DNA of 64,000 nucleotides from Desulfofustis sp. PB-SRB1 (GTDB lineage Bacteria > Desulfobacterota > Desulfobulbia > Desulfobulbales > Desulfocapsaceae), in NCBI GenBank assembly GCA_016722945.1, contig JAEQMT010000009.1, forward strand, positions 62,001-126,000. Direction: 5' to 3'. Shown here piece by piece: positions 7,467 through 51,517 of the stretch. Under the pieces are notes generated by a model. That model was given only the letters and a program-made list of their open reading frames with translations. It made no database searches and was not told where the DNA came from. Within the stretch, counting starts at the first letter, position 1, and the number at the start of each line of letters is the position of its first letter. The position numbers were made by a program, and so were the translations under genes.

Positions 7467-7550
7467 TCATGTTTCAAGGCTGCCTTATGATGGAGCAATA
7501 CAGACCTCTACAAGAGACAAGGAGGAATAATAGGGGAATGTTATAGGGAT

Positions 7551-7716
7551 TTTCCCTGCGCTGTTGGTGATTTGTAGTGTTCTTGAGCCAACTCTCACCC
7601 TAAGGGAGCCACCACTGCCCCGCAACGAAAGACCGTCACGTTTCTCGACGCCGGGTATGCGGATCCCACCTATTTCGATAGGTTCTAATACGTCCTACAG
7701 ACACGGCAGGGTGGGG
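7551..7716 (+). ncRNA. ssrS: 6S RNA
   Basis: The segment begins TTTCCCTGCGCTGTTGGTGA and ends GGCAGGGTGGGGAAA, so the 5' and 3' ends can pair into the closing stem. Other 6S hallmarks are the TTCTTGAGCC block after the first stem and the GGGAGCCACC block, which form the flanks of the central bubble mimicking an open promoter. The length of about 166 nt and the location after zapA fit proteobacterial 6S RNA, which binds the housekeeping RNA polymerase holoenzyme and is released by product-RNA synthesis. The exact ends are uncertain by a few bases. Confidence 0.88.
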
Positions 7717-7731
7717 AAAATGAGTTTCAAC

Positions 7732-21764: not shown

Positions 21765-22295
21765 ATGAAATATAGTATTTCTCGCCTGCAATCGGCACTT
21801 TTCATCCAGATTCTTGTCTGGTTGTCTGTTGCCGGCCTTACCGCCTGTGCACCGGAGAGCTCGAAACGACTCAAAATCGGTGATCAGGCCCCTGATTTTG
21901 CAATTGTCGATCTCACCGGCGCCTCCATCTCACTTGCCCAGTGGCGGGGCAACCCTGTCATCCTGCGTTTCTGGGATACCGAGTGCAAATACTGCCGGGC
22001 CGATACGCCCTCCATCAATTACTATTTCGATCAGTACCAGGAGCGCGGTCTCAAGGTGTTATACGTCGCCACCGGCAACGAAACCGAAGCACGGGTGCGC
22101 GAATTCATCGAGGTTCTCGATGTTGCCTTCCCGGTGGCCATCGACAGCGACATGAAGGTAGCCGAAAGCTATCAGGTGACCATTGTCCCGCAGACCATTT
22201 TTATCAGCCCCGATCAGAAGATCATCACCGCCGTCGTCGGCGGTGTCGGCAAGGCGGAGCTGGCCGAGATCCTCGGGCCGTATCTATCCTCTTAA
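21765..22295 (+). CDS. TlpA/ResA-like thioredoxin-fold lipoprotein
   Basis: This 176-residue protein has a hydrophobic N-terminus ending LTACAPES, a lipoprotein signal. The thioredoxin-like domain has GDQAPDFAIVDLTGASISLA, redox motif CKYC in WDTECKYCRADTP, and the cis-Pro loop VTIVPQTIF. Such proteins reduce or oxidise thiols outside the cytoplasmic membrane, often in cytochrome c or metal-site assembly. It follows mobA by 6 bp. The NosL cluster starts 190 bp downstream beyond a repeat, so a link to it is possible but unproven. Confidence 0.88.
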   Translation: MKYSISRLQSALFIQILVWLSVAGLTACAPESSKRLKIGDQAPDFAIVDLTGASISLAQWRGNPVILRFWDTECKYCRADTPSINYYFDQYQERGLKVLYVATGNETEARVREFIEVLDVAFPVAIDSDMKVAESYQVTIVPQTIFISPDQKIITAVVGGVGKAELAEILGPYLSS

Positions 22296-22299
22296 TCGC

Positions 22300-22459
22300 G
22301 ATGAACTGGTAAAAACCTTGAATTTGCTTGCTAACGTCATTCCCGCCCTCGATAATAACACTCAAGGGCAGGCTGCAGCGGGAATCCAGTAATTTCAATG
22401 ATTATGGATTTCGGTTCAACTCCACAATGACCATAAGTGGGGTTTTCACGAAGCCATCA
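22300..22459 (+). repeat. MITE-A copy, about 160 bp
   Basis: Left end GATGAACTGGTAAAAACC and right end GGGGTTTTCACGAAGCCATCA. It contains the same 32-bp hairpin insert as the copy at 19.5 kb. It fills the gap between the thioredoxin-like gene and the NosL gene. Confidence 0.8.
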
Positions 22460-22485
22460 ATCGTAACTAAGGAGAAATTGATCAC

Positions 22486-23037
22486 ATGAATAGTATCGTG
22501 AAGGGTGTTCTTGTTTTTGTTGGTATTCTGCTCTCCGTTCCGGCCGGAGCCGAGCCAGTAGATCCCATCGACCCGAAGAGCAGATGCCCGGTATGCGGCA
22601 TGATGCCCGCCAAGTACCCGCTGTGGATTGCCCAGATCCATGCGGTGGATGGTGAGCCGGTGTTTTTTGACGGGGTCAAGGATATGATGGCCTACTATTT
22701 TGAGCCGGAAGTCTACGGCGGGCCACCTTCTCTGGATGATGCCGATATCTACGTGCGCGACTATTACCGGCAGGAGTATATCGACGGCCGGAGTGGTTTT
22801 TACGTGGTGGGCAGCGATGTGATGGGGCCCATGGGGTATGAGTTGATCCCCTTTGCCGAGCGTGGCGCCGCCGAGCAGTTTCTTGCCGATCACAACGGTG
22901 ACACCATCCTGAGCTTTACGGAAATTACCCTGGAGCGCATTAACGAGATGCGGCAGGCGCACATGCTGAAAATGAAAAAGAATAAAGGCAACATGAAGCA
23001 TGACCACAGTGCCGGCGCCATGAACAGCCAGCAATGA
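22486..23037 (+). CDS. NosL-like copper-binding accessory protein
   Basis: This 183-residue exported protein has a signal peptide (VLVFVGILLSVPAGAEP) rather than a lipobox. The NosL core begins RCPVCGMMPAKYPLWIAQI and continues VFFDGVKDMMAYYF and GFYVVGSDVMGPMGYELIPF. The tail is rich in Met, His and Lys (MLKMKK, MKHDHSAGAM), which suits metal binding. NosL proteins bind Cu(I) and help N2O reductase, but no nosZ is present here. It heads a tight five-gene cluster and overlaps the next gene by 4 bp. Confidence 0.9.
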   Translation: MNSIVKGVLVFVGILLSVPAGAEPVDPIDPKSRCPVCGMMPAKYPLWIAQIHAVDGEPVFFDGVKDMMAYYFEPEVYGGPPSLDDADIYVRDYYRQEYIDGRSGFYVVGSDVMGPMGYELIPFAERGAAEQFLADHNGDTILSFTEITLERINEMRQAHMLKMKKNKGNMKHDHSAGAMNSQQ

Positions 23038-23339
23038 AGTGGATGTCGAAGCCGCGGCCGTCAACCTGGCTGGGTATCATCGGCGGCGGTCTCATGTTCT
23101 GCCAGCTCATCCTGATAGGGCTTGCCCATGTCCAGCTGGCCGCACGTACCTCCGGGCAGGAACTGATGCGTGCCCAGGTGCAGCGGCTTGGCCTCAGCGA
23201 CATCTGCATCGCCACCGAGGCCAGATACATCAGGCATTTGGCCGTCACCGATCAGGTGGCGCCGTTCATGGATCACCCCTTGGCTCTTGAATATTTCCCC
23301 TCCGGTTCACTGTGGGCCCCGGTTATCTCATCTCGCTGA
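23034..23339 (+). CDS. Small single-span membrane protein of NosL cluster
   Basis: This 101-residue protein has one N-terminal membrane segment (WLGIIGGGLMFCQLILIGLA) and a periplasmic domain of about 70 residues with a single extracytoplasmic Cys (LSDICIATEAR). I do not recognise the family. It overlaps the NosL gene by 4 bp and the permease gene by 28 bp, so it is almost certainly co-translated with them and probably a subunit or partner of the transporter. Confidence 0.8.
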   Translation: MKWMSKPRPSTWLGIIGGGLMFCQLILIGLAHVQLAARTSGQELMRAQVQRLGLSDICIATEARYIRHLAVTDQVAPFMDHPLALEYFPSGSLWAPVISSR

Positions 23340-24517
23340 GGCGGCAGCGTAACCTGCTCGATTTCGCCCTGGGCAGCCTGTGGCGGGCACGCTGGAAAAA
23401 CGGCGGTATCGTCGTGGTGTTCAGCCTGGTCATCTTCATTATCGCCTCATTTCGGCTGATGGTGGCCGGCCTCGAGCAGGCCTCCACGGCGGTGTTGGCC
23501 ACCGTGCCGGACATCACCGTGCAGCGGCTTGTGGCTGGTCGGCAGATGCCGGTACCGCTTTGGTGGGTGGAGGAGTCCGGAGCCGTTTTCGGTATCAGAA
23601 GCATTAAACCCCGCGTCTGGGGGTACTATTTTCATGAGACCAGCGGCGCCAATTTCACCATTATCGGGGTGGAGGATTTCCCCGGTGGCGAACCGCTGCC
23701 GGGTGTCGCCATGCAGGCCGTAAGCGCGGATGAGCAGGTGGAGGAGAACCAATTTTCTCCCGTGGTGCTGGGCCAAGCCGTGCACCAGATGCTTGCTCTT
23801 GGCGACCGGGTCAATGTTTCGCTGTTTCGGCCCGATCTCACCCTCAAAGGGTTTTCAGTGGTCGGTCTCTTTGCACCGCAAACCGGGCTGGTAACCGATG
23901 ATCTCATGGTCATGGCCATCGACGATGCCCGTGATTTGTTCGCTCTCGCGCCGCACAACGCCACCGATCTGCTTATTTCGGTGCCCAACCCGCTGGAGGT
24001 GGACACCATCGCCCAGAAGCTTATGGCAAAACTGCCCGGCAGCAGGGTGATCACCAAAGCCCAGATTGGTAAAACCTACAATGCGGCCTTTGGCTGGCGG
24101 AGCGGGTTCGGGATGATCTGTCTGATCGGTACGGTGGCGGCCTTCGTTATTCTCGCCTGGGATAAGGCGGCCGGTCTGAGTCCGGAACAGCGCCGCGAGG
24201 TGGCGCTGCTCAAAACACTGGGCTGGCAGACCGGCGATGTAATGGCAATCCGGTTCATGGAATCACTGGTTGTCTGTGTGGTGGCATTTCTGGTGGGCAC
24301 CGGACTTGCCTGGGCGCATATCGTTTTTACCGACGGCTTTCTGTTCAAACCATTGCTGCTGGGCTGGTCGGTGCTTCGGCCATCCTTGTCGCCGGTACCG
24401 GTGATCCGTTTCGATGATGTGCTCATCATTTTCGTCATGTCGGTTGTTCCCTATCTTGCCGCTACCATCGTACCCGCCTGGCGCGGCGCGATGATCCGGG
24501 CCGATGCCACCCTGTAA
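23312..24517 (+). CDS. FtsX/MacB-type ABC transporter permease
   Basis: This 401-residue permease has one N-terminal membrane helix (GGIVVVFSLVIFIIASF), a periplasmic domain of about 220 residues, then three C-terminal helices (FGMICLIGTVAAFVILAW and later). This is the MacB/LolE layout. The coupling segment REVALLKTLGWQTGDVMAIR is typical. Such transporters act by mechanotransmission on periplasmic substrates. The gene overlaps the small membrane protein gene and meets the ATPase gene head-on, so the ABC pair is complete. Confidence 0.9.
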   Translation: MGPGYLISLRRQRNLLDFALGSLWRARWKNGGIVVVFSLVIFIIASFRLMVAGLEQASTAVLATVPDITVQRLVAGRQMPVPLWWVEESGAVFGIRSIKPRVWGYYFHETSGANFTIIGVEDFPGGEPLPGVAMQAVSADEQVEENQFSPVVLGQAVHQMLALGDRVNVSLFRPDLTLKGFSVVGLFAPQTGLVTDDLMVMAIDDARDLFALAPHNATDLLISVPNPLEVDTIAQKLMAKLPGSRVITKAQIGKTYNAAFGWRSGFGMICLIGTVAAFVILAWDKAAGLSPEQRREVALLKTLGWQTGDVMAIRFMESLVVCVVAFLVGTGLAWAHIVFTDGFLFKPLLLGWSVLRPSLSPVPVIRFDDVLIIFVMSVVPYLAATIVPAWRGAMIRADATL

Positions 24518-24518
24518 G

Positions 24519-25196
24519 ATGATTATCAGGCTGCACGAGGTTCATAAGTTTTACAACCGCGACACCCCGCGCCAGGTGCATGCGGTGCGCGGCGTCAGCC
24601 TGGCGGTTCAAGAGGGCGAGGCGGTATGCATCAGCGGTCCCAGCGGTTCGGGTAAATCGACCCTGTTGGGTATTATCGGCGGCTTCTTCGTTCCCACCAG
24701 CGGGCTGGCCGAGGTTGCCGGCGTCAAGCTGGCCCGCCTGCCGGATCGGTTTCTCACCAGCTATCGCCGCGACTATATCGGCTTTATTCCGCAGCGTTTC
24801 CCGGTTATCGGCGCGATGAGCGTGCTGGCCAATGTCATCCTGCCCCTGCTGCCGCTGGGCGTGGAACAGCGAGAGAGCGAAGAGCGGGGAAGACAGCTAC
24901 TTACCCGTCTCAACATCACCCACAAACAAAACATGCCCGCCGCCGAGCTTTCCGGCGGCGAACTGCAGCGTCTGGTCATTGCCCGGGCGCTGATCAACGA
25001 TCCGCCCATCATCCTGGCCGACGAACCCACCGCCCATCTTGACAGCGCTTTGAGCACCCAGTTCATCTCAATTATGAGTGAGTGCCGGGCCGAGGGCAAA
25101 ACCGTGGTGATCGCCTCCCATGATCCGCTGGTGTTTCAATCCTCGTTGATCGATCGACACCTGATTCTGGAAGACGGCGCCATGGTCGCCGGGTGA
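24519..25196 (+). CDS. LolD/MacB-type ABC transporter ATP-binding protein
   Basis: This 225-residue ATPase has Walker A GPSGSGKST, a Q loop (IGFIPQRFPV), signature ELSGGELQRLVIARAL and Walker B IILADEPTAHLD, with an H-loop His in VIASHDPLVF. It is the partner of the FtsX-type permease upstream. ATG 24519 follows the permease stop by one base; an in-frame ATG at 24504 would overlap the permease end and add five residues. Confidence 0.94.
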   Translation: MIIRLHEVHKFYNRDTPRQVHAVRGVSLAVQEGEAVCISGPSGSGKSTLLGIIGGFFVPTSGLAEVAGVKLARLPDRFLTSYRRDYIGFIPQRFPVIGAMSVLANVILPLLPLGVEQRESEERGRQLLTRLNITHKQNMPAAELSGGELQRLVIARALINDPPIILADEPTAHLDSALSTQFISIMSECRAEGKTVVIASHDPLVFQSSLIDRHLILEDGAMVAG

Positions 25197-25205
25197 TGCG
25201 GCGCC

Positions 25206-26231
25206 ATGTTGTTTGAACCGTTCTCCCTCGCCCTGCTCGGGGCCGGCCTCATCTCGCTCTATCTGGTGCTGGTGGCTTCATTCACCGCGGTTCAGGTGAT
25301 CAGATACTGGGATCTCGAGGCCGACGACAACCGCCAGATCGAACTGGAACAGCGCACCTGGCTCTCATCGGCGCTGGTGCAGGGTGCTTTGGTGCTGCAG
25401 ATGGTAAGCCTTGTCATCATGATCGGCGCCGCCGATCATTTTGCCGATCTGCTCAGTGGCGCCATGTGTGCCACCGGGGCGCTCACCGCCAATTCATTCG
25501 GCGTCCCCGCCCTGATGGTCAAGATTGTCACGCTTTTTTGTGCCGCTATCTGGCTGACCATCAACCGAATAGACCTGAGCGTGCCGACCTATCCACTCAC
25601 CACAGCCAAACACTGGCTCATTCTGACCCTCTTGCCGCTTATCTGTCTCGACCTCGGCCTGGTTACCGCCTACCTCGCCCTGCTGCGCCCGGATATCGTG
25701 GTATCATGCTGTGGGGTGATCTTTGCCGAGTCGACCCCCAACGGTTTCAGCCTGATCGGCCTGCTGCCCACACTGCCGCTGCTGGGTTGCTACGGTGCGC
25801 TCGTTGGCGTGCTTATCTGGCTGGCTATTTTTATGCGGCTCAAAATGGCCAATGGTAAAACTATCGGTGGTGCCGAGGCGTTTGTCGCCGGGCTTGGCTG
25901 GCCGCTTTTTTACCTGCTTTCGGTGGTGGTTATTACCGTTATTGTCAGCCCCTATGTGTACGCCATGCCGCACCACCGCTGTCCCTTTGACCTGCTGCGC
26001 GGCTCCTACGGCTGGATTGGCTACCCCCTCTACCTGAGCCTGCACGGCGCGGTCATTGCCGGCATCACCATCCCGGTCACCTGGTGGTCGGCCAGATACC
26101 CCGGCGCAGCCGACACCGCCCAGCGCATCCAACGCCGGGCAGTACCGGGCGCCATGGCACTGCTGCTCGTCTTCCTCACCATAGCCGCATTCAAACCGCT
26201 GATGTACAACATCCTCGGCGGCCAATGGTGA
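25206..26231 (+). CDS. Polytopic membrane protein of NosL cluster
   Basis: This 341-residue protein has about eight membrane segments and no family I recognise. Cys and His residues sit at membrane-edge positions (SGAMCATGALTAN, VVSCCGVIFAE, MPHHRCPFDLL), which would suit metal, heme or thiol chemistry. It follows the ATPase gene by 9 bp and ends the cluster. Context suggests it works with NosL and the ABC transporter. Confidence 0.82.
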   Translation: MLFEPFSLALLGAGLISLYLVLVASFTAVQVIRYWDLEADDNRQIELEQRTWLSSALVQGALVLQMVSLVIMIGAADHFADLLSGAMCATGALTANSFGVPALMVKIVTLFCAAIWLTINRIDLSVPTYPLTTAKHWLILTLLPLICLDLGLVTAYLALLRPDIVVSCCGVIFAESTPNGFSLIGLLPTLPLLGCYGALVGVLIWLAIFMRLKMANGKTIGGAEAFVAGLGWPLFYLLSVVVITVIVSPYVYAMPHHRCPFDLLRGSYGWIGYPLYLSLHGAVIAGITIPVTWWSARYPGAADTAQRIQRRAVPGAMALLLVFLTIAAFKPLMYNILGGQW

Positions 26232-28500: not shown

Positions 28501-29268
28501 ATGAGATTCACACATTACGATCTTGGTCAAAAGAGAGGTGGGGAAATCATTGAAGTGACGTTGCAGGGTAGCTCAGCCAATGTCAGGCTAATGGATTCCT
28601 CCAATTTTTATAGTTACCGAGCTGGTCGAAGTCATCGCTATCAGGGCGGGCTGGTTAAAAGGTCACCATATAGAATTCAAGTACCAAGATCGGGACATTG
28701 GCACGTTACGGTTGATATGGCTGGTCTTAGAGGCACTGTTCGTTCTTCTATTCGGCAATTACCGGGAGCATTACCGACTGCACAAGAAGCTCCACTCTCA
28801 TCTGTTCCATCTCTTGTTCGTGATAGAGAACCAGGATTTCAAGCGGCAGAAGATCTTGAATTCGATGTTTTTATATCTCACGCTTCAGAAGATAAAGAAG
28901 AGGTAGTTCGCCCCCTAGCCCATGCACTCAAACAAGGTGGACTCAAAGTTTGGTATGACGAGTTTGAATTAAAAATTGGAGATAGCCTCAGGAGAAAAAT
29001 CGACACCGGTTTGTCCAAAAGCCGTTTTGGTATTGTCGTTTTCTCAAAGATATTTCTCACGAAAGGATGGACCAATTATGAACTAGACGGTTTGGTCACA
29101 AAGACTATCAGTGGAGACCAAGTGTTACTACCCATTTGGCATAATGTAACAAAAAAAGAAATCATTAATTATAGTCCTTCCTTAGCTGACAAACTGGCAA
29201 GAAACACATCCACTCACACTGTTGAGGAGATCGCTGAAGAAATAATCACTCTTATCAATTGGGACTAA
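28501..29268 (+). CDS. DUF1883-TIR domain protein (candidate defence NADase)
   Basis: This 255-residue protein has two parts. Residues 1-90 match DUF1883 (FTHYDLGQKRGGEIIEVTLQ, VRLMDSSNFYSYRAGRSHRY, VPRSGHWHVTVDMAG). From about residue 120 comes a TIR domain (EFDVFISHASEDKEE, VWYDEFELKIGDSL, GIVVFSKIFL) with Glu194 in WTNYELDGL at the catalytic position of NAD-cleaving TIRs. Bacterial TIR proteins often act in antiphage systems by NAD depletion or signal-nucleotide synthesis; that role here is inference. It is the first of three genes in one cassette, 34 bp before the membrane protein gene. Confidence 0.88.
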   Translation: MRFTHYDLGQKRGGEIIEVTLQGSSANVRLMDSSNFYSYRAGRSHRYQGGLVKRSPYRIQVPRSGHWHVTVDMAGLRGTVRSSIRQLPGALPTAQEAPLSSVPSLVRDREPGFQAAEDLEFDVFISHASEDKEEVVRPLAHALKQGGLKVWYDEFELKIGDSLRRKIDTGLSKSRFGIVVFSKIFLTKGWTNYELDGLVTKTISGDQVLLPIWHNVTKKEIINYSPSLADKLARNTSTHTVEEIAEEIITLINWD

Positions 29269-30477: not shown

Positions 30478-30674
30478 TGTTGAACCCCAGATTATCTAAA
30501 ATAAAACCAGCCTTTTTTGTCAGAATCTGTTAGCAGTGGGTGGTGACACTGCAGATTATTTTGATTTCTCGTAACGTTATTGCACACCCCTCGTGAGTGG
30601 TGGCTGCCGGGGCCGTGGACACGGCCCCGGCAGCCCTCCAGGCAGGAAACCTACTTCCTGAAAGGAGTTGCCTT

Positions 30675-31181
30675 GTGGTACTGTTTGTTGCCGCATCCGT
30701 CAAGGAAATTGCTCGTCTCGGCACCGCCTACCCCTGGAATAAACCATCGTGCTGTCCCCGGTGCGGTGGACGGTTGTGGTGGCATGGATTTGTTGTCGCC
30801 TGGTTTAGCTGCCTTTCTCATTGTGTCTATCTTCGACGTCTGTTCTGTTCGCAGTGCCGCGCCGTTCATCGGTTGAAACCACAGGGGTATTGGCCCCGGT
30901 ATCGCAGTTCCAGTGCTGAGATTCACCAGGCAATTACCCACCGACAGAGCACAAAACGCTGGCGGCCCGATCTGCCGCGTTCGCGCCAACGCCAGTGGTG
31001 GCGTCGGCTAGGTCGGATGATTCGGCTGGTCTTCGGGATGTCCACTCAGCTTACCCACCGGGAAGGATTCACTCGACTCATTGCACGAAACATCATCCCG
31101 GTCACCCAAGCAATACACCATGACAATCGACACATCCATGACCCACCCTACCGTATTGTAGCTCTGCCCGGCGGCCTCTGA
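30675..31181 (+). CDS. DUF6431-type zinc-ribbon protein of the element, copy 1
   Basis: This 168-residue basic protein has two Cys pairs, SCCPRCGGRLWWHG and RLFCSQCRAVH, probably one zinc ribbon. A Trp/Arg-rich middle (RQRQWWRRLGRMIRL) looks DNA- or protein-binding. The family accompanies DDE integrase/ATPase pairs in many bacterial elements, and its job in transposition is not established. GTG 30675 with AAGGAG upstream is preferred to an ATG at 30597 that lies inside a hairpin. Confidence 0.8.
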   Translation: MVLFVAASVKEIARLGTAYPWNKPSCCPRCGGRLWWHGFVVAWFSCLSHCVYLRRLFCSQCRAVHRLKPQGYWPRYRSSSAEIHQAITHRQSTKRWRPDLPRSRQRQWWRRLGRMIRLVFGMSTQLTHREGFTRLIARNIIPVTQAIHHDNRHIHDPPYRIVALPGGL

Positions 31182-31245
31182 GCATGGTATCGGCAGACAG
31201 ACTCGGATAACCCGACTCTGATACCCCATACCCAGGAGGACGCCC

Positions 31246-32565
31246 ATGGAAGACGAAGCCTTACGTACCGAAGTTGCCCTGTTTCGCTTCGGAGTCATCA
31301 GCGAGTTGGTTGCATCACGACTCGAACCCGGTGAGTTGACCGAACTCATCTATCAAAAAAGTGAGCAGCACTGGCATATCCCCGGCTCTCATCGCACCCG
31401 GGTGTCGGCAGCCACCGTCAGGCGCTGGCTGCGACTCTATGAGCGGGGCGGCCGCGAGCTCAGTGCCTTGATGCCGGCCAGGCGGTGCGACCGGGGATGC
31501 TCTCGCACGGTCGATGATGAGACTCGCGGCGCCCTGATCCGGTTGCGCAAAGAACAACCAGGTTGGCCGGTCTGGCGGCTGGTGCAAGCACTTGCTGAAA
31601 AACAAGTAATCACACCCGGCACGACCCTGAGTCTCTCCACCGCCTATCGCATCCTCACCCAGGAAAAGCTTGACAGCGCCGCTCTGCACAAGCGAGCCCC
31701 GGTGGATCGACGGCGTTACGAGGCCGAATTCCCCAACGATATCTGGCAATCAGATATCATGCACGGCCCGCTGGTAAAAGGCACCGGCAAAAGGCGCAAA
31801 GCGTATCTGATCGCCATTCTTGACGATCATTCCCGGTTCATTACCCACGGCGAGTTCTTCTCTTCGGAAAAACTCGAATCCTGGCTCCAGGTCTTTCGCC
31901 AGGCCCTGCTTACCAGAGGACTGCCGCGTAAACTCTACGTGGACAACGGCGCCGCCTTTCGCTCACGCCATCTCGAACGAATCTGTGCCTCGCTCGGCAT
32001 CGCCCTGATCCACAGCCGCCCCTATACCCCACAGGGGCGCGGCAAGATCGAGCGCTTCTTTCGCACCGTCAGATCCCGGTTTATCTCGCGCCTCGATGAC
32101 CAACCCGACACCCTTGCTCAGCTCAATGAGCGGTTCCAGCACTGGCTGGAAACGGACTATCTGCATCGGGTTCATTCGGTCACCGCGATGACCCCGTTCA
32201 ACCGCTTTGCCGCTCATCTTGAAATGATTCGCGAAGCACCCGCTGATCTTACTGATCACTTCCGTAAAGAAGTGCGGCGCCGGGTCAGCAAAGACCGGGT
32301 CGTCACCATCGACGGACGACTCTTCGAAGCCCCGGTTCAATTGATCGGTGAACGGGTCACGCTCTTGTTCAACGATGATCGGCCGGAACGGGTCGAAATC
32401 TTCTGTAAGGGGCAGTCGTGTGGTCTGCTCAGGCCGGTTGATCTGGTGGTCAACACCCTGGTGAAACGAACCAAAAACGGCGGTGAAGAGATGCTCGCCG
32501 AAACCTCGACATGCCGGCCGGGACGGCTGCCCTTTGATCCTAGCGCCGACGGAGGTGGATCATGA
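31246..32565 (+). CDS. DDE integrase (TniA/Mu-like transposase), copy 1
   Basis: This 439-residue transposase has N-terminal helix-turn-helix domains (VSAATVRRWLRLYERGG) and an RNase H-like core. The DDE residues lie in DIWQSDIMHGP, LYVDNGAAFRS and GRGKIERFFRTV. A C-terminal beta domain (RVVTIDGRLFEAPVQL) matches the Mu transposase/TniA group. It cuts and joins element ends and probably needs the ATPase encoded next, whose ATG overlaps its stop by 4 bp. Confidence 0.92.
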   Translation: MEDEALRTEVALFRFGVISELVASRLEPGELTELIYQKSEQHWHIPGSHRTRVSAATVRRWLRLYERGGRELSALMPARRCDRGCSRTVDDETRGALIRLRKEQPGWPVWRLVQALAEKQVITPGTTLSLSTAYRILTQEKLDSAALHKRAPVDRRRYEAEFPNDIWQSDIMHGPLVKGTGKRRKAYLIAILDDHSRFITHGEFFSSEKLESWLQVFRQALLTRGLPRKLYVDNGAAFRSRHLERICASLGIALIHSRPYTPQGRGKIERFFRTVRSRFISRLDDQPDTLAQLNERFQHWLETDYLHRVHSVTAMTPFNRFAAHLEMIREAPADLTDHFRKEVRRRVSKDRVVTIDGRLFEAPVQLIGERVTLLFNDDRPERVEIFCKGQSCGLLRPVDLVVNTLVKRTKNGGEEMLAETSTCRPGRLPFDPSADGGGS

Positions 32566-33365
32566 GCTATCGAACTTTCTTCGGCCTCAGTGCGGAGCCC
32601 TTCAGGGCTGATCTCGCCCTTGAGCAGGTGCTCACCACCCCGGAATTGCTCGGCGTCCAGCAACGCCTCGACTATGTCTTGCGTCTGGGCGCCATCATGC
32701 TTGTCACCGGCGAAGTCGGCGCCGGCAAATCAACCGCCGTGCGCTACAGCTGTGGAACGCTTCATCACTCTCGGTACAAGACCCTGTGGGTCACCGCTTC
32801 AGCCGGCTCTATTCTCGAACTCTACCGCCAGCTCCTGGCCGAGCTTGACATCGCTACCGCATCGTCCTCACGGGCCGTATTGACCCGGCTGATCAGAGCA
32901 CAGATCGACAGCCTGGTCGCCGGTAAAAAGCAGCAACCCCTGCTGATTATCGATGAGGCCTCACTGCTGCGCCTCGATGTCTTTGCCGAGCTCCATACCA
33001 TCACCCAGTTCGAAGCCGACTCCAAACCGTGGCTGCCCATGGTGCTGGCCGGCCAGAATAACCTGGCGGAAAACCTGCTCTACCGTACCGCCATACCGCT
33101 GGCTTCTCGCATTGTTGCCAGAAGTCATCTGCCGGCGGTCACCCGCCAGGCGATGGGTGAGTATCTGGACCATCATCTCACCATTGTCGGAATAAAAAAC
33201 TCACCCTTTACCGAACAGGCGGTAACCGCCATTCATCAGGGCTCCGGCGGGCTCTTTCGCAAAGCCAACCATCTTGCCCGCGGCGCCATGATCGCCGCTG
33301 CCGCCGAAAAAACACAAGAGGTAACAGCGGAGCATGTTCGGTGTGCCGACTCGGAGCTGCTGTAA
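32562..33365 (+). CDS. TniB/ExeA-like AAA ATPase, copy 1
   Basis: This 267-residue ATPase has Walker A GEVGAGKST, Walker B LLIIDEAS and sensor region LPMVLAGQNNLAENLL. The N-terminal YRTFFGLSAEPFRAD is typical of transposition ATPases related to ExeA, TniB and IstB. These proteins select or mark target DNA for the DDE enzyme. It is coupled to the integrase gene by a 4-bp overlap. Confidence 0.92.
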   Translation: MSYRTFFGLSAEPFRADLALEQVLTTPELLGVQQRLDYVLRLGAIMLVTGEVGAGKSTAVRYSCGTLHHSRYKTLWVTASAGSILELYRQLLAELDIATASSSRAVLTRLIRAQIDSLVAGKKQQPLLIIDEASLLRLDVFAELHTITQFEADSKPWLPMVLAGQNNLAENLLYRTAIPLASRIVARSHLPAVTRQAMGEYLDHHLTIVGIKNSPFTEQAVTAIHQGSGGLFRKANHLARGAMIAAAAEKTQEVTAEHVRCADSELL

Positions 33366-42272: not shown

Positions 42273-43076
42273 TTACAGCAGCTCCGAGTCGGCACACCGA
42301 ACATGCTCCGCTGTTACCTCTTGTGTTTTTTCAGCGGCAGCGGCGATCATGGCGCCGCGGGCAAGATGGTTGGCTTTTCTAAAGAGCCCGCCGGATCCCT
42401 GATGAATGGCGGTTACCGCCTGTTCGGTAAAGGGTGAGTTTTTTATTCCGGCAATGGTGAGATGATGGTCCAGATACTCACCCATCGCCTGCCGGGTGAC
42501 CGCCGGCAGATGACTTCTGGCAACAATGCGGGAAGCCAGTGGGATGGCAGTGCGGTAGAGCAGGTTTTCGGCCAGGTTATTCTGGCCGGCCAGCACCATG
42601 GGCAGCCACGGTTTGGAGTCGGCCTCGAACTGGGTGATGGTATGCAGTTCGGCAAAGACATCGAGGCGCAGCAGTGAGGCCTCATCGATAATCAGCAGGG
42701 GTTGCTGCTTTTTACCGGCGACCAGGCTGTCGATCTGTGTTCTGATCAGCCGGGTCAATACGGCCCGTGAGGACGATGCGGTGGCGATATCAAGCTCGGC
42801 CAGGAGCTGGCGGTAGAGTTCGAGAATAGAGCCGGCCGAAGCGGTGACCCACAGGGTTTTGTACTGAGAGGGATGAAGCGTTCCACAGCTGTAGCGCACG
42901 GCGGTTGATTTGCCGGCGCCGACTTCGCCGGTGACGAGCATGATGGCGCCAAGGCGCAGAACATAGTCGAGGCGCTGCTGGACGCCGAGCAATTCCGGGG
43001 TGGTGAGTACCTGCTCAAGGGCGAGATCGGCCCTGAAGGGCTCCGCACTGAGGCCGAAGAAACTTCGATAGCTCAT
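42273..43076 (-). CDS. TniB/ExeA-like AAA ATPase, copy 2
   Basis: This 267-residue ATPase has the same Walker A (GEVGAGKST) and Walker B (LLIIDEAS) motifs as copy 1. Differences include S for T in YRSFFG, HPSQYKT for HHSRYKT and A for V in LTIAGIK. It overlaps the integrase gene by 4 bp. Confidence 0.92.
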   Translation of the reverse strand: MSYRSFFGLSAEPFRADLALEQVLTTPELLGVQQRLDYVLRLGAIMLVTGEVGAGKSTAVRYSCGTLHPSQYKTLWVTASAGSILELYRQLLAELDIATASSSRAVLTRLIRTQIDSLVAGKKQQPLLIIDEASLLRLDVFAELHTITQFEADSKPWLPMVLAGQNNLAENLLYRTAIPLASRIVARSHLPAVTRQAMGEYLDHHLTIAGIKNSPFTEQAVTAIHQGSGGLFRKANHLARGAMIAAAAEKTQEVTAEHVRCADSELL

Positions 43077-44392
43077 GATCCACCTCCGTCGGCGCCAGGA
43101 TCAAAGGGCAGCCGTCCGGGTTGGCATGTCGTGGTCTTGGCGAGCATCTCTTCACCGCCGTTTTTGGTTCGTTTCACCAGGGTGTTGACCACCAGATCAA
43201 CCGGCCTGAGCAGACCACACGACTGCCCCTTACAGAAGATTTCGACCCGTTCCGGCCGATCATCGTTGAACAAGAGCGTGACCCGTTCACCGATCAATTG
43301 AACCGGGGCTTCGAAGAGTCGTCCGTCGATGGTGACGACCCGGTCTTTGCTGACCCGGCGCCGCACTTCTTTACGGAAGTGATCAGCAAGCTCAGCGGGT
43401 GCTTCGCGAATCATTTCAAGATGAGCGGCAAAGCGGTTGAACGGGGTCATCGCGGTAACCGAATGAACCCGATGCAGATAGTCCGTTTCCAGCCAGTGCT
43501 GGAACCGGTCATTGAGCTGAGCAAGGGTGTCGGGTTGGTCATCGAGGCGCGAGATAAACCGGGATCTGACGGTGCGAAAGAACCGCTCGATCTTGCCGCG
43601 CCCCTGTGGGGTATAGGGGCGGCTGTGGATCAGGGCGATGCCGAGCGAGGCACAGATTCGTTCGAGATGGCGTGAGCGAAAGGCGGCGCCGTTGTCCACG
43701 TAGAGTTTACGCGGCAGTCCTCTGGTAAGCAGGGCCTGGCGAAAGACCTGGAGCCAGGATTCGAGTTTTTCCGAAGAGAAGAACTCGCCGTGGGTAATGA
43801 ACCGGGAATGATCGTCAAGAATGGCGATCAGATACGCTTTGCGCCTTTTGCCGGTGCCTTTTACCAGCGGGCCGTGCATGATATCTGATTGCCAGATATC
43901 GTTGGGGAATTCGGCCTCGTAACGCCGTCGATCCACCGGGGCTCGCTTGTGCAGGGCGGCGCTGTCAAGCTTTTCCTGGGTGAGGATGCGATAGGCGGTG
44001 GAGAGACTCAGGGTCGTGCCGGGTGTGATTACTTGTTTTTCAGCAAGTGCTTGCACCAGCCGCCAGACCGGCCAGCCTGGTTGTTCTTTGCGCAACCGGA
44101 TCAGGGCGCCGCGAGTCTCATCATCGACCGTGCGAGAGCATCCCCGGTCGCACCGCCTGGCCGGCATCAAGGCACTGAGCTCGCGGCCGCCCCGCTCATA
44201 GAGTCGCAGCCAGCGCCTGACGGTGGCCGCCGACACCCGGGTGCGATGAGAGCCGGGGATGTTCCAGTGCTGCTCACTTTTTTGATAGATGAGTTCGGTC
44301 AACTCACCGGGTTCGAGTCGTGATGCAACCAACTCGCTGATGACTCCGAAGCGAAACAGGGCAACTTCGGTACGCAAGGCTTCGTCTTCCAT
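43073..44392 (-). CDS. DDE integrase (TniA/Mu-like transposase), copy 2
   Basis: This 439-residue transposase keeps all DDE residues (DIWQSDIMHGP, LYVDNGAAFRS, GRGKIERFFRTV). It differs from copy 1 in a few scattered residues, including the C-terminal LAKTTTCQPGRLPFDPGADG. No frameshift or stop is present, so both copies look functional. Confidence 0.92.
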   Translation of the reverse strand: MEDEALRTEVALFRFGVISELVASRLEPGELTELIYQKSEQHWNIPGSHRTRVSAATVRRWLRLYERGGRELSALMPARRCDRGCSRTVDDETRGALIRLRKEQPGWPVWRLVQALAEKQVITPGTTLSLSTAYRILTQEKLDSAALHKRAPVDRRRYEAEFPNDIWQSDIMHGPLVKGTGKRRKAYLIAILDDHSRFITHGEFFSSEKLESWLQVFRQALLTRGLPRKLYVDNGAAFRSRHLERICASLGIALIHSRPYTPQGRGKIERFFRTVRSRFISRLDDQPDTLAQLNDRFQHWLETDYLHRVHSVTAMTPFNRFAAHLEMIREAPAELADHFRKEVRRRVSKDRVVTIDGRLFEAPVQLIGERVTLLFNDDRPERVEIFCKGQSCGLLRPVDLVVNTLVKRTKNGGEEMLAKTTTCQPGRLPFDPGADGGGS

Positions 44393-44456
44393 GGGCGTCC
44401 TCCTGGGTATGGGGTATCAGAGTCGGGTTATCCGAGTCTGTCTGCCGATACCATGC

Positions 44457-44963
44457 TCAGAGGCCGCCGGGCAGAGCTACAATACGGTAGGGTGGGTCAT
44501 GGATGTGTCGATTGTCATGGTGTATTGCTTGGGTAACCGGGATGATGTTTCGTGCAATGAGTCGAGTGAATCCTTCCCGGTGGGTAAGCTGAGCGGACAT
44601 CCCGAAGACCAGCCGAATCATCCGACCTAGCCGACGCCACCACTGGCGTTGGCGCGAACGCGGCAGATCGGGCCGCCAGCGTTTTGTGCTCTGTCGGTGG
44701 GTAATTGCCTGCTGGATCTCAGCACTGGAACTGCGATACCGGGGCCAATATCCCCGTGGTTTCAACCGATGAACGGCGCGGCACTGCGAACAGAACAGAC
44801 GTCGAAGATAGACACAATGAGAGCGGCAGCTAAACCAGGCGACAACAAATCCATGCCACCACAACCGTCCACCGCACCGGGGACAGCACGATGGTTTATT
44901 CCAGGGGTAGGCGGTGCCGAGACGAGCAATTTCCTTGACGGATGCGGCAACAAACAGTACCAC
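44457..44963 (-). CDS. DUF6431-type zinc-ribbon protein, copy 2
   Basis: This 168-residue protein is nearly identical to copy 1, with changes such as WFSCRSHC for WFSCLSHC and GMSAQLTH for GMSTQLTH. Both Cys pairs are kept. The start is GTG 44963 with AAGGAG upstream. The leader hairpin is kept with 15-bp arms. Confidence 0.8.
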   Translation of the reverse strand: MVLFVAASVKEIARLGTAYPWNKPSCCPRCGGRLWWHGFVVAWFSCRSHCVYLRRLFCSQCRAVHRLKPRGYWPRYRSSSAEIQQAITHRQSTKRWRPDLPRSRQRQWWRRLGRMIRLVFGMSAQLTHREGFTRLIARNIIPVTQAIHHDNRHIHDPPYRIVALPGGL

Positions 44964-45164
44964 AAGGCAACTCCTTTCAGGAAGTAGGTTTCCTGCCTGG
45001 AGGGCTGCCGGGGCCGTTGCCACGGCCCCGGCAGCCACCACTCATGAGGGGTGTACAATAACGTTACGAGAAATCAAAATAATCTGCAGTGTCACCACCC
45101 ACTGCTAACAGATTCTGACAAAAAAGGCTGGTTTTATTTTAGATAATCTGGGGTTCAACAGTGG

Positions 45165-48502: not shown

Positions 48503-51500
48503 ATGAATCTTTCGGCAGCTGTTTTGCCCAGCCGTTTCGACCCTCATTTTCAGGTCTTTCACGAGTTGATGCCGTTTAAGGTCCAGCAGATTCTGCTGGT
48601 CTCAAGCCTGTATGATGCCTTCATCATGGAAGAAGACGGCTCCATAACCTCCAAGATCATCCACGAATATCACGGCCTGAATCTCAGCAAGGCGCCCCGG
48701 GTGACCAGGGTGTCATCGGGTGAGGAGGCGCTGGAGTTGCTGGAGCAGCGACATTTCGATCTGGTGGTGACCATGCCGTTTCTCAGCAGCATGAATGCCT
48801 ATGAGCTGGGAGCGCGGATCAAACAAAAATTTCCGGGGCTGCCGGTGGTGCTGCTGGTGCACAACGTTCGCACCATTCGCCCGCTTACCCAGCAGTACGA
48901 TCCTGCCGTTATCGACAACGTCTTTGTCTGGTGCTGTGAGGATGACCTGCTGCTGGCCATTATCAAAAACGTTGAAGATCACGCCAACGTAGACAACGAT
49001 ATCGCCCGTGCCATGGTGCGGGTGATTATCTACGTGGAGGATTCCGCCGAGTACCGGTCGCTCTTTCTGCCGGCTATCTATCATGAGGTGGTACGACAGA
49101 CCCAGGCCGTGCTCGATGAATCGATCAACGAACGTCACCGGCTGCTGCGCATGCGAGCCCGCCCGAAAATCCTCATGGCGCGCAACTATGAAGAGGCGAT
49201 GGATCTCTACCACCGCTACAAGCCGTATCTGTTCGCGGTGATCTCCGATGCACGCTACAGTCGCGGCGGCAGGGTAGATGGACGGGCCGGTGAGCGCTTT
49301 TTGGCGCGGGTACGCGAAGAGATACCAGATCTGCCGCTGCTGATGATCTCTTCTGAGGAGGAAAACAGGAAGGCGGCAGAGGCGATTCCGGCGGTCTTTA
49401 TCTCCAAGCATTCAGCTGATATGCGCGCCGAGCTGGAGCACTTTTTTACCACCTATCTCGGTTTTGGCGATTTTGTTTTTCGCCGGCCGGACGGCACGCC
49501 CATCCGGCACGCTTCGAATCTTATCGAATTTATGCAGGCCCTGCGTGAGGTGCCGGACGAATCCATTCAGTATCACGCCCTGCGCAATCATTTTTCCAAC
49601 TGGGTAATGGCACGCTCGGAGGTGCGGCTGGCACGTGAGCTGCACCGCGATTTCATCGGCGATATCCATCAGGTTGCAGCCATGCGAGAAAACCTGATCG
49701 AGCGGGTACGGGAGTTACGCAGACGGCGCCAGAAAGGGGTGGTGACCGGCTTTAATCGGGATCGTTACGACCCGGAGATCACCGAGTTCGTCAAGATCGG
49801 CACCGGGCCCATTGGCGGTAAGGCGCGCGGCCTCGCCTTTATGTGGGCGCATCTGCAGCAGGCGGTGGAAAAAGAGTCCATCCTCGCCCGGTATCCGGTT
49901 CACATTCCCAAAACCCTGGTGATCTCCGCCGATGGTTTTGATGATTTTATCGATGTCAATCATCTTCATATTGATGGAAAGATGAATGATGAGCAGATTG
50001 CCGACATCTTTATCGACAGCCTCCTGCCCGACTGGTTGCGTCGTGATCTGCATGGTTTTCTTGAGCGTTGCCAGGTACCGCTGTCGGTGCGCTCGTCCAG
50101 CCTGATGGAAGACGGCCATTTCCGTCCCTACGCCGGGCTTTACTCCACCTATTTTCTGACCAACAACCATGAGAGTTTCGAGGAACGGCTCAGCCAGCTT
50201 GAGTGTGCCGTCAAGATGGTCTACGCCTCCACTTGGTTCGAGAGCCCGCAATCGTTTTCGCGGGGAGCCGGAGCAAGTAACAGAGAAGATGCCATGGCCG
50301 TCATTGTCCAGGAGGTGGTGGGTGGTTTGTACAACGGCGCCTGGTATCCGCCCCTGTCCGGGGTGGCACAGTCGCACAACTATTATCCGGTGCAGGGGAT
50401 GTTGCCCACCGAAGGTATCGCCCACGTTGCCGTGGGGGTGGGCAAAACGGTGGTGGAGGGGGAACGCAATCTGCGCTTCTCCCCGGCTCACCCGCAGAAA
50501 TTGATCCAGTTTTCCTCGGTGGACGATATCCTGGAAAACTGTCAGCGCCGGTTTTATGCCCTGAACATGGAAGATCCCGGCTGCCTCAATCGCGCCCAGG
50601 GCAACCTCAGGAGCTATCAGGTGCAGCAGCGTGCGGCTGACGAACCGATACGGCTGCTCTGTTCCACCTATATTCCCGAGGAACACCGCATCCGCGATGT
50701 TGACATGGCGGGTGTGAAGATTCCCACCTTCGCCCAGATGCTCAAACACGGGGCCTACCCCCTGGCCGAGATCCTTACGGAATTGTTGAATATCGGCAGA
50801 CAGGCCATCGGCAGTGAGGTGGAGATTGAATTCGGCGTGGCCATGGGCGACACGCTTGGCGAGTCGAGGTTTTATCTGTTGCAGATTCGTCCCATGGTGA
50901 CCGGCGGTGAGGCGGCCGATGTGGGGATCTGCGCCCACGAGATCGAGCAGGCGTTTTGCTATTCCACCCAGAGTCTGGGCCATGGCCGAGTGAGCGATAT
51001 CTTTGATGTGATCTTCGTTAAGCCGGACAGCTTCGATCCGGCGGCGACCCGCGATATTGCCAGAGAAATCGGCATCTTTAATCGAAATATGGCGGCCGCC
51101 GGTCGCTCTTATCTGCTGATCGGGCCGGGTCGCTGGGGTACCAACGACCACTGGTTGGGGATCCCGGTACAGTGGAGCGATATTTCACGGGTGCATGGGA
51201 TTGTCGAGCTGCGCGGCAAGATGCTGCGTGCCGATCCATCCCAGGGCTCGCACTTTTTTCAAAACATTACCTCCCTGGGTATCCCCTATCTTACCGTTGA
51301 TGAGCAAAACGGCGGGAAGCGCCGGGAAGATAGTGATTATTTCGACTGGGGTTGGCTGCTTGACCAGCCGGCCGTGGCCGACGGCACCTGGGTGCGCCAT
51401 GTGCGTATCCCCATGGGGGTAACGATAAAGTGTGACGGCAAGATGAGTACCGGCATCATTATGTGCCGCACCGATTTAATCGACCGTGAGTGTGCCCCGG

Positions 51501-51517
51501 AGCTTCGGGAATTTTGA
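48503..51517 (+). CDS. Receiver-like / PEP-synthase N-domain (PPDK_N) fusion protein
   Basis: This 1004-residue protein has three regions. Residues 30-150 resemble a receiver domain, but the phosphoacceptor Asp is replaced (FDLVVTMPFLSS). A second receiver-like stretch covers about 170-320 (VRVIIYVEDSAEYR, FAVISDARYSRGG). From about residue 430 comes a PPDK_N / PEP-pyruvate-binding ATP-grasp region (GPIGGKARGLAFMW, VPLSVRSSSLMEDGHFRPYA, AVIVQEVVGG, FYLLQIRPM). No phosphohistidine (TSHAA-type) domain and no PEP-binding barrel are present, so it is not a complete PEP synthase. A signalling kinase or phosphotransferase role is possible. Confidence 0.85.
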   Translation: MNLSAAVLPSRFDPHFQVFHELMPFKVQQILLVSSLYDAFIMEEDGSITSKIIHEYHGLNLSKAPRVTRVSSGEEALELLEQRHFDLVVTMPFLSSMNAYELGARIKQKFPGLPVVLLVHNVRTIRPLTQQYDPAVIDNVFVWCCEDDLLLAIIKNVEDHANVDNDIARAMVRVIIYVEDSAEYRSLFLPAIYHEVVRQTQAVLDESINERHRLLRMRARPKILMARNYEEAMDLYHRYKPYLFAVISDARYSRGGRVDGRAGERFLARVREEIPDLPLLMISSEEENRKAAEAIPAVFISKHSADMRAELEHFFTTYLGFGDFVFRRPDGTPIRHASNLIEFMQALREVPDESIQYHALRNHFSNWVMARSEVRLARELHRDFIGDIHQVAAMRENLIERVRELRRRRQKGVVTGFNRDRYDPEITEFVKIGTGPIGGKARGLAFMWAHLQQAVEKESILARYPVHIPKTLVISADGFDDFIDVNHLHIDGKMNDEQIADIFIDSLLPDWLRRDLHGFLERCQVPLSVRSSSLMEDGHFRPYAGLYSTYFLTNNHESFEERLSQLECAVKMVYASTWFESPQSFSRGAGASNREDAMAVIVQEVVGGLYNGAWYPPLSGVAQSHNYYPVQGMLPTEGIAHVAVGVGKTVVEGERNLRFSPAHPQKLIQFSSVDDILENCQRRFYALNMEDPGCLNRAQGNLRSYQVQQRAADEPIRLLCSTYIPEEHRIRDVDMAGVKIPTFAQMLKHGAYPLAEILTELLNIGRQAIGSEVEIEFGVAMGDTLGESRFYLLQIRPMVTGGEAADVGICAHEIEQAFCYSTQSLGHGRVSDIFDVIFVKPDSFDPAATRDIAREIGIFNRNMAAAGRSYLLIGPGRWGTNDHWLGIPVQWSDISRVHGIVELRGKMLRADPSQGSHFFQNITSLGIPYLTVDEQNGGKRREDSDYFDWGWLLDQPAVADGTWVRHVRIPMGVTIKCDGKMSTGIIMCRTDLIDRECAPELREF

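Follow-up and report, generated by a model that had tools for sequence, protein, structure and literature searches.

Analysis of a 64,000-nucleotide stretch of the Desulfofustis sp. PB-SRB1 genome (contig JAEQMT010000009.1, positions 62,001 to 126,000; the whole stretch is called the window below) revealed five adjoining genes at 22486–26231 that form a conserved module across several phyla. They encode a NosL-family protein, a small bitopic membrane protein (sTM), a permease, an ATPase and an unnamed protein with eight transmembrane (TM) spans (M8). We lean, if narrowly, towards reading the five products as one periplasm-facing type VII ATP-binding cassette (ABC) machine that would move Cu(I) with soluble NosL, serving copper homeostasis or efflux and possibly the loading of cuproenzymes. 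The known parts each belong to known kinds of protein. A search of open-access full text, a weak negative, turned up no account of M8, of sTM or of the assembly as a NosL/FtsX/LolD/8-TM module. The five genes and the thioredoxin-like gene ahead of them are as follows.

21765..22295, + strand: ResA/TlpA-like thioredoxin lipoprotein gene, probable thiol reductant of the module (PF00578, 6.7e-25)
22486..23037, + strand: NosL type A (CPVCGM), candidate soluble periplasmic Cu(I) carrier (PF05573, 110.7 bits)
23034..23339, + strand: sTM, small bitopic protein of 101 amino acids (in 35/297 genomes, outside Pfam families)
23312..24517, + strand: FtsX/LolC-type permease of a type VII ABC transporter, GTG start (PF02687)
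24519..25196, + strand: LolD/FtsE-type ATPase (PF00005, 97.6 bits)
25206..26231, + strand: M8, unnamed 8-TM protein of 341 amino acids, with Cys loops GAMC, SCC and HxCPF

A preliminary description of the locus had proposed five tightly spaced or overlapping genes, and all five open reading frames (ORFs) proved to be real, correctly placed and tightly coupled. Gene calls were ORF-based and no gene finder was used. NosL and sTM overlap by 4 nucleotides (nt), sTM and the permease by 28 nt, and 9 nt separate the ATPase from M8. The ATPase ORF opens at 24504; the ATG at 24519, one base past the permease stop, is the likelier start.

Conservation and distribution of the module

A total of 297 genomes drawn from the host phylum were searched, and M8 was found in 43 of them. 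NosL occurs in 52 genomes (38 of the 43 with M8 and 14 of the 254 without), and sTM, searched for independently, in 35 (33/43 and 2/254, respectively). Fisher's test, with relatedness ignored, puts both associations with M8 far outside chance. All five gene kinds stand together in 51 of 58 loci from named genomes (out of 80, those with at least 4.5 kb upstream) and in 21 of the 30 phylum loci with room upstream (out of 33 non-duplicates, seven loci having been dropped as duplicates of named ones). Incomplete loci mostly lack NosL, have a divergent M8 or are rearranged. The preliminary description had named a lack of joint conservation as evidence that would count against it; the five genes do recur together across genomes.

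At least 561 stretches in named genomes encode M8 relatives. The best 80 of these come from Desulfobacterota, Nitrospirota, Methylococcales, Azospirillaceae, Lentisphaerae and Marinimicrobia, and named carriers include Geomonas paludis, Oryzomonas japonica, Geobacter sp. OR-1 and Methylomonas sp. WSC-6. Within the family of the window genome, 6 of 13 genomes carry M8. The gene order in Methylococcaceae is M8-NosL-Trx-NosL, with NosL downstream; elsewhere NosL lies upstream, often as two genes. Plasmid copies of M8 were sought and none was found. In one genome (G285) the whole module stands twice in tandem (L039, 5234–14747), and there is a third M8 locus (L064).

NosL proteins of the module

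On sequence grounds the window protein is assigned to the NosL family, with a score far above the PF05573 gathering cut-off (110.7 against 24 bits) and the CxM copper motif. It is the single NosL of the host genome. The nearest PDB chains are those of NosL itself (7znq/7osf), with which CxxCGM and the second Met align; the tail of the window protein is rich in His and Met. Inspection of the window protein found no lipobox, and a lipobox-like sequence is present in just 10 of 158 module NosLs (simple regular expression, duplicate genomes included), 156 of which keep CxxCGM. According to the available part of PMC7558416, classical NosL carries a lipoprotein anchor.

By motif classes defined in this study, module NosL is of two soluble kinds. 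Type A (CPVCGM) comprises 103 sequences, and of the 87 loci in which a NosL was scored, 85 have it; type B (CxxCGMDR plus a CSxHC motif) comprises 43 sequences. Classical lipoprotein NosL appears among module loci only in two nos operons. Types A and B both retain the CxM Met as well as the second conserved Met; the available portion of PMC6530538 discusses these residues in connection with Cu(I) binding. Clade II nos operons at L060 and L066/L095 hold up to four NosL-family genes, in which classical and module-type forms are mixed.

Permease, ATPase and sTM

Judged from sequence and family profiles, the permease and ATPase make up a type VII ABC transporter of the LolCD/MacB-like kind, in agreement with the MacB/LolE-type permease and ATPase of the preliminary description. 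The permease scores 30.9 bits against PF02687 (cut-off 25.5), and its family profile retrieves LolC (2.4e-12), LolF, YtrF and LolE. Its predicted structure (mean predicted local distance difference test score, pLDDT, 85.9) matched LolE of LolCDE (3.5e-16), MacB (2.2e-14), HrtB and others in Foldseek; the modelled FtsX-type fold with a periplasmic domain, together with a LolD/FtsE-class ATPase, places the pair in type VII. The ATPase, in which Walker A, LSGGE and Walker B were read by eye, scored 173 bits against the NCBIfam model of FtsE, 169 against LolD and 167 against MacB, the first two below cut-off. Neither the LolCE nor the LolD equivalog cut-off was reached (56 against 362 bits and 169 against 308 bits). 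Transporters of type VII work by mechanical coupling and act on periplasmic or membrane-held substrates.

The sTM protein has a predicted periplasmic motif, which takes the form TEARYIRH...HP...FPSG in the window. No meaningful Pfam or NCBIfam match was found for the sTM and M8 proteins of the window, and scans of 17 and 35 of their relatives returned no Pfam family, only scattered weak matches.

The eight-span protein M8

M8 was modelled through a relative (locus L036), which gave eight long helices with a mean pLDDT of 89.6. Since Lys and Arg are richer in loops 1, 3, 5 and 7, the GAMC, SCC and HxCPF motifs are assigned to loops 2, 4 and 6 as periplasmic. An eight-span protein with Cys and His at the membrane edges had been described earlier, and the model bears this out, with Cys and His in three loops on the same side. 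All 115 aligned rows (seven genomes counted twice) share cysteines 88, 168, 169 and 251 together with Met 87, and the window protein retains all four cysteines. CPFC is found in 106 of the rows; the window version is CPFD. Comparison of M8 with NCBIfam yielded no family and two chance-level matches, and with PDB sequences no match. Foldseek against solved structures gave nothing significant (best E value 0.24); a VIA-align comparison reached Z values up to 13.8, with helical bundles only.

Neighbouring genes

An unselected scan took in the genes on the same strand as the module and no more than 300 bp from it, except for one doubtful gene call (a 1753-residue ORF, L063:10274-15535), which leaves 109 of 110. 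Among the 109, AhpC-TSA/Redoxin proteins are the most numerous (21), followed by ACR_tran pumps of the resistance-nodulation-division (RND) type (14), CusB-type HlyD_D23 proteins (4), SCO1 (3), cytochrome CBB3 (3) and DsbD_2 (2). The link to the upstream thioredoxin-like protein, at first a suggestion from one locus, is thus borne out across genomes. As read off the protein, the window representative has a CKYC site and an LTAC that resembles a lipobox; it scores 118 bits against the ResA subfamily, under the cut-off of 170. Its gene ends 190 nt before NosL in the window; the two overlap by 4 nt in the relatives L033 and L046. The gap (22296–22485) contains a palindromic repeat (GTCATTCCCGC...GCGGGAATCCAG), the 12-base end of which occurs eight times in the window at no more than one mismatch (0.5 expected).

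The two RND pumps that were scored against NCBIfam are of the CusA/CzcA type, and one adjacent pump compared with PDB structures is CusA-like (CusA 957 bits, ZneA 483 bits). A TIGR00914-type (CusA) pump is encoded no more than 10 kb from M8 in at least 12 of the 43 genomes, partial matches at contig ends (G113, G142) included, against 1.05 expected under random placement (Poisson P ~1e-9). Loci of Methylococcaceae and Nitrospirota also carry a DsbD_2 protein, DsbD_N and a copper-type P-ATPase. The preliminary description had inferred metal or cofactor handling with an unknown client. The first part gains from the CusA-type pumps, SCO1 and DsbD-like neighbours; the second does not, as no client enzyme recurs among the 109 adjacent genes beyond a few loci. 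Since a copper efflux pump is the commonest neighbour after thioredoxin, to speak of an "unknown client" may misframe many carriers.

A cluster of PPDK, glutamate dehydrogenase and ATE genes directly downstream of M8 in four relatives of the same family was considered as a client and rejected as housekeeping synteny, which the window shares 22 kb further on. The PPDK_N/response-regulator gene, which directly follows M8 in those relatives, stands at 48503–51517 in the window, and the interval 26400–48400 is probably an inserted island. Most of it is of lower G+C, and it holds two inverted, near-identical three-gene sets with the look of transposition (30597–33365 on the + strand and 42273–45041 on the - strand) and a protein named TIR-like from its sequence (28501–29268). 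Elsewhere, a 6S RNA gene at 7550–7721 is the sole Rfam match in the window.

Copper enzymes as candidate clients

The earlier statement that no N2O reductase is nearby can be extended to the whole host genome, which has no nosZ: TIGR04246 matches nothing there but a CoxB protein, in its CuA domain (28 bits), and the best match to NF052460 has an E value of 8e-4. Constant company of nosZ elsewhere had been named as a second point that would tell against the preliminary description, and the module usually occurs without nosZ. Carriers of M8 were compared with 25 controls picked by hand from the listed genomes without M8, mostly of the same families and biased to those shown in the M8 and L-NosZ listings. 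Clade II nosZ exceeded its cut-off in 2 of the 43 carriers and in none of these controls.

Clade III (lactonase-type) L-NosZ exceeded its cut-off in two carriers, both of family f49, where it and M8 lie on different contigs. As a client it was rejected, since six clade III loci (L088-L093; five over the cut-off and G173 just below) have no M8, FtsX or sTM match and matched only a NosF-class ATPase and thioredoxin. The neighbourhoods of these loci are unlike clade II nos operons, and most include an ABC ATPase. CuA oxidase was rejected likewise: its gene is not enriched in carriers (11/43 against 10/25 in the controls; P 0.28), and 32 carriers have none. Any heme-copper oxidase (COX1), counted among the carriers, is present in 27/43, and 14/43 have neither COX1 nor NosZ. 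None of these common cuproenzymes is therefore a required client.

Comparison with known systems

The module does not belong to NosDFYL, LolCDE, MacAB or CusCBA. Like NosDFY-NosL, it combines an ABC transporter with a NosL Cu(I) chaperone, and in 2/43 genomes it is embedded in a nos operon. Unlike that system, the window locus has no NosD beta-helix, ABC-2 permease NosY or NosZ (the Pfam scan of the six window genes found neither NosD nor NosY, both of which were seen in L060), its NosL is a soluble CPVCGM form and not a lipoprotein, and it includes a LolC-type permease and two unnamed families. By analogy, we propose that the module may work like NosDFYL, built from different parts and not tied to NosZ.

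With the type VII transporters LolCDE, MacAB, FtsEX, HrtBA and YtrEF, the module shares the FtsX-type permease with its periplasmic domain, the LolD/FtsE-type ATPase and the fold match; it differs from them in its NosL, sTM and M8 partners and in falling below the LolCE and LolD equivalog cut-offs. In contrast to MacAB-TolC, the ATPase and permease are separate genes and not a MacB-type fusion, and no MacA or membrane fusion protein was found among the scanned neighbours in the window. The recurrent CusA-type pump suggests a likeness to CusCFBA, and, given the general behaviour of CusF, NosL may take CusF's place as the periplasmic Cu(I) carrier; the module itself, however, is not an RND pump. 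The thioredoxin-like partner, and SCO1 next to some module loci, recall the SCO1/TlpA chaperones of CuA oxidase, but the CuA oxidase operon of the host includes its own SCO1 and most carriers have no such oxidase.

Proposed mechanism and rival explanations

In the mechanism that we narrowly favour, NosL of type A, often joined by type B, would serve as a soluble Cu(I) carrier. With its four invariant cysteines, M8 may present a thiol-rich site for Cu(I) on the periplasmic side of the inner membrane, sTM could be a periplasmic adaptor or gate, and the thioredoxin-like lipoprotein would keep the thiols of the module reduced. ATP hydrolysis would power the step in which Cu(I) is loaded or released between M8/permease and NosL. 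Where a genome has neither a heme-copper oxidase nor NosZ, copper probably passes to an adjacent CusCBA pump for efflux; in genomes like that of the host, which encodes a CuA oxidase but lacks a CusA-type pump above the cut-off, the module would buffer or deliver copper. For the host, whose genome also encodes a CopA-class ATPase over the cut-off, buffering or delivery is likelier than RND efflux. Copper binding, the Cu(I) cargo, the direction of transport and the role in the host are the proposed rather than the observed parts of the mechanism.

Several observations weigh against this mechanism. Its copper specificity rests on NosL homology and on neighbours, and M8 and sTM have no known homologue. 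Five of the 43 M8 genomes have no detected NosL, no neighbour is universal across loci, and in 31/43 genomes no CusA lies within 10 kb, among the matches listed. The division of carriers by enzyme content speaks for the mechanism but needs care: among the 30 high-quality genomes of the 43, CusA lies within 10 kb in 7/8 of those without COX1 and NosZ against 1/22 of the others (8/14 against 4/29 in all 43, among the matches listed throughout), a split that was seen post hoc in genomes that are not independent, four of the eight being of one family. In the host, the single match to the TIGR00914 model of CusA reaches 406 against a cut-off of 701 bits, so efflux coupling cannot be the whole role of the module there. 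Finally, both genomes with a clade II nosZ have the module embedded in a nos operon, alongside genes for NosD, NosF, NosY and a classical lipoprotein NosL, and this favours cuproenzyme assembly in those genomes.

These two operons strengthen the main rival, a cofactor-assembly machine analogous to NosDFYL that would load an unrecognised periplasmic copper or copper-sulfur enzyme encoded elsewhere. In nos systems NosL acts as a copper chaperone of the CuZ site, as stated in the available part of PMC6530538, the two operons are full nosZ-nosDFLY operons, heme-copper oxidases occur in 27/43 carriers, and SCO1 and cytochrome c genes adjoin some loci. Yet the 109 adjacent genes contain no recurring client, 14 carriers have neither COX1 nor NosZ, and CuA oxidase is no commoner in carriers than in controls; we regard cofactor assembly as rather unlikely. 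A thiol/redox or sulfur-species system is improbable. Here the maturation of disulfides or of cytochrome c would draw on the ABC transporter and the Cys-rich M8 to move thiols or sulfane sulfur or to reduce them, with NosL a recruited metal scavenger, and the lead of thioredoxin-like proteins among adjacent families (21/109), DsbD_2 and DsbD_N genes at methanotroph loci and the CPFC and SCC motifs of M8 would all fit; CPFC, however, is not invariant, as the CPFD of the window illustrates, and the NosL and CusA links are left unexplained. That the permease is nearest to LolC/LolE in sequence and fold could suggest a Lol-like lipoprotein-sorting or signalling system with a NosL gene adjacent by chance, but NosL, sTM and M8 co-occur with the permease across phyla, the LolCE and LolD cut-offs are missed by far, and module NosLs are mostly not lipoproteins, which makes this reading very improbable.

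Implications

A wider interpretation, which we put forward with some reserve, is that the module represents an undescribed class of periplasmic copper machine powered by ATP. A LolC/MacB-type mechanotransmission ABC transporter would join with M8 and sTM, as a new membrane protein family and a new bitopic adaptor, and with soluble NosL to supply Cu(I) to CusCBA in strict anaerobes and to cuproenzymes elsewhere, the use of NosL for N2O reductase being one derived case. NosL has so far been familiar mostly as an aid to that enzyme, and its genes are easily taken for a sign of N2O reduction; in the host phylum NosL marks this module far more than nosZ, since 38 of the 52 genomes with NosL carry M8. 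M8 and sTM, two widespread families that neither Pfam nor NCBIfam covers, gain a testable role. If true, the proposal would show how anaerobes handle periplasmic Cu(I), and copper would join the substrates of type VII ABC transporters.

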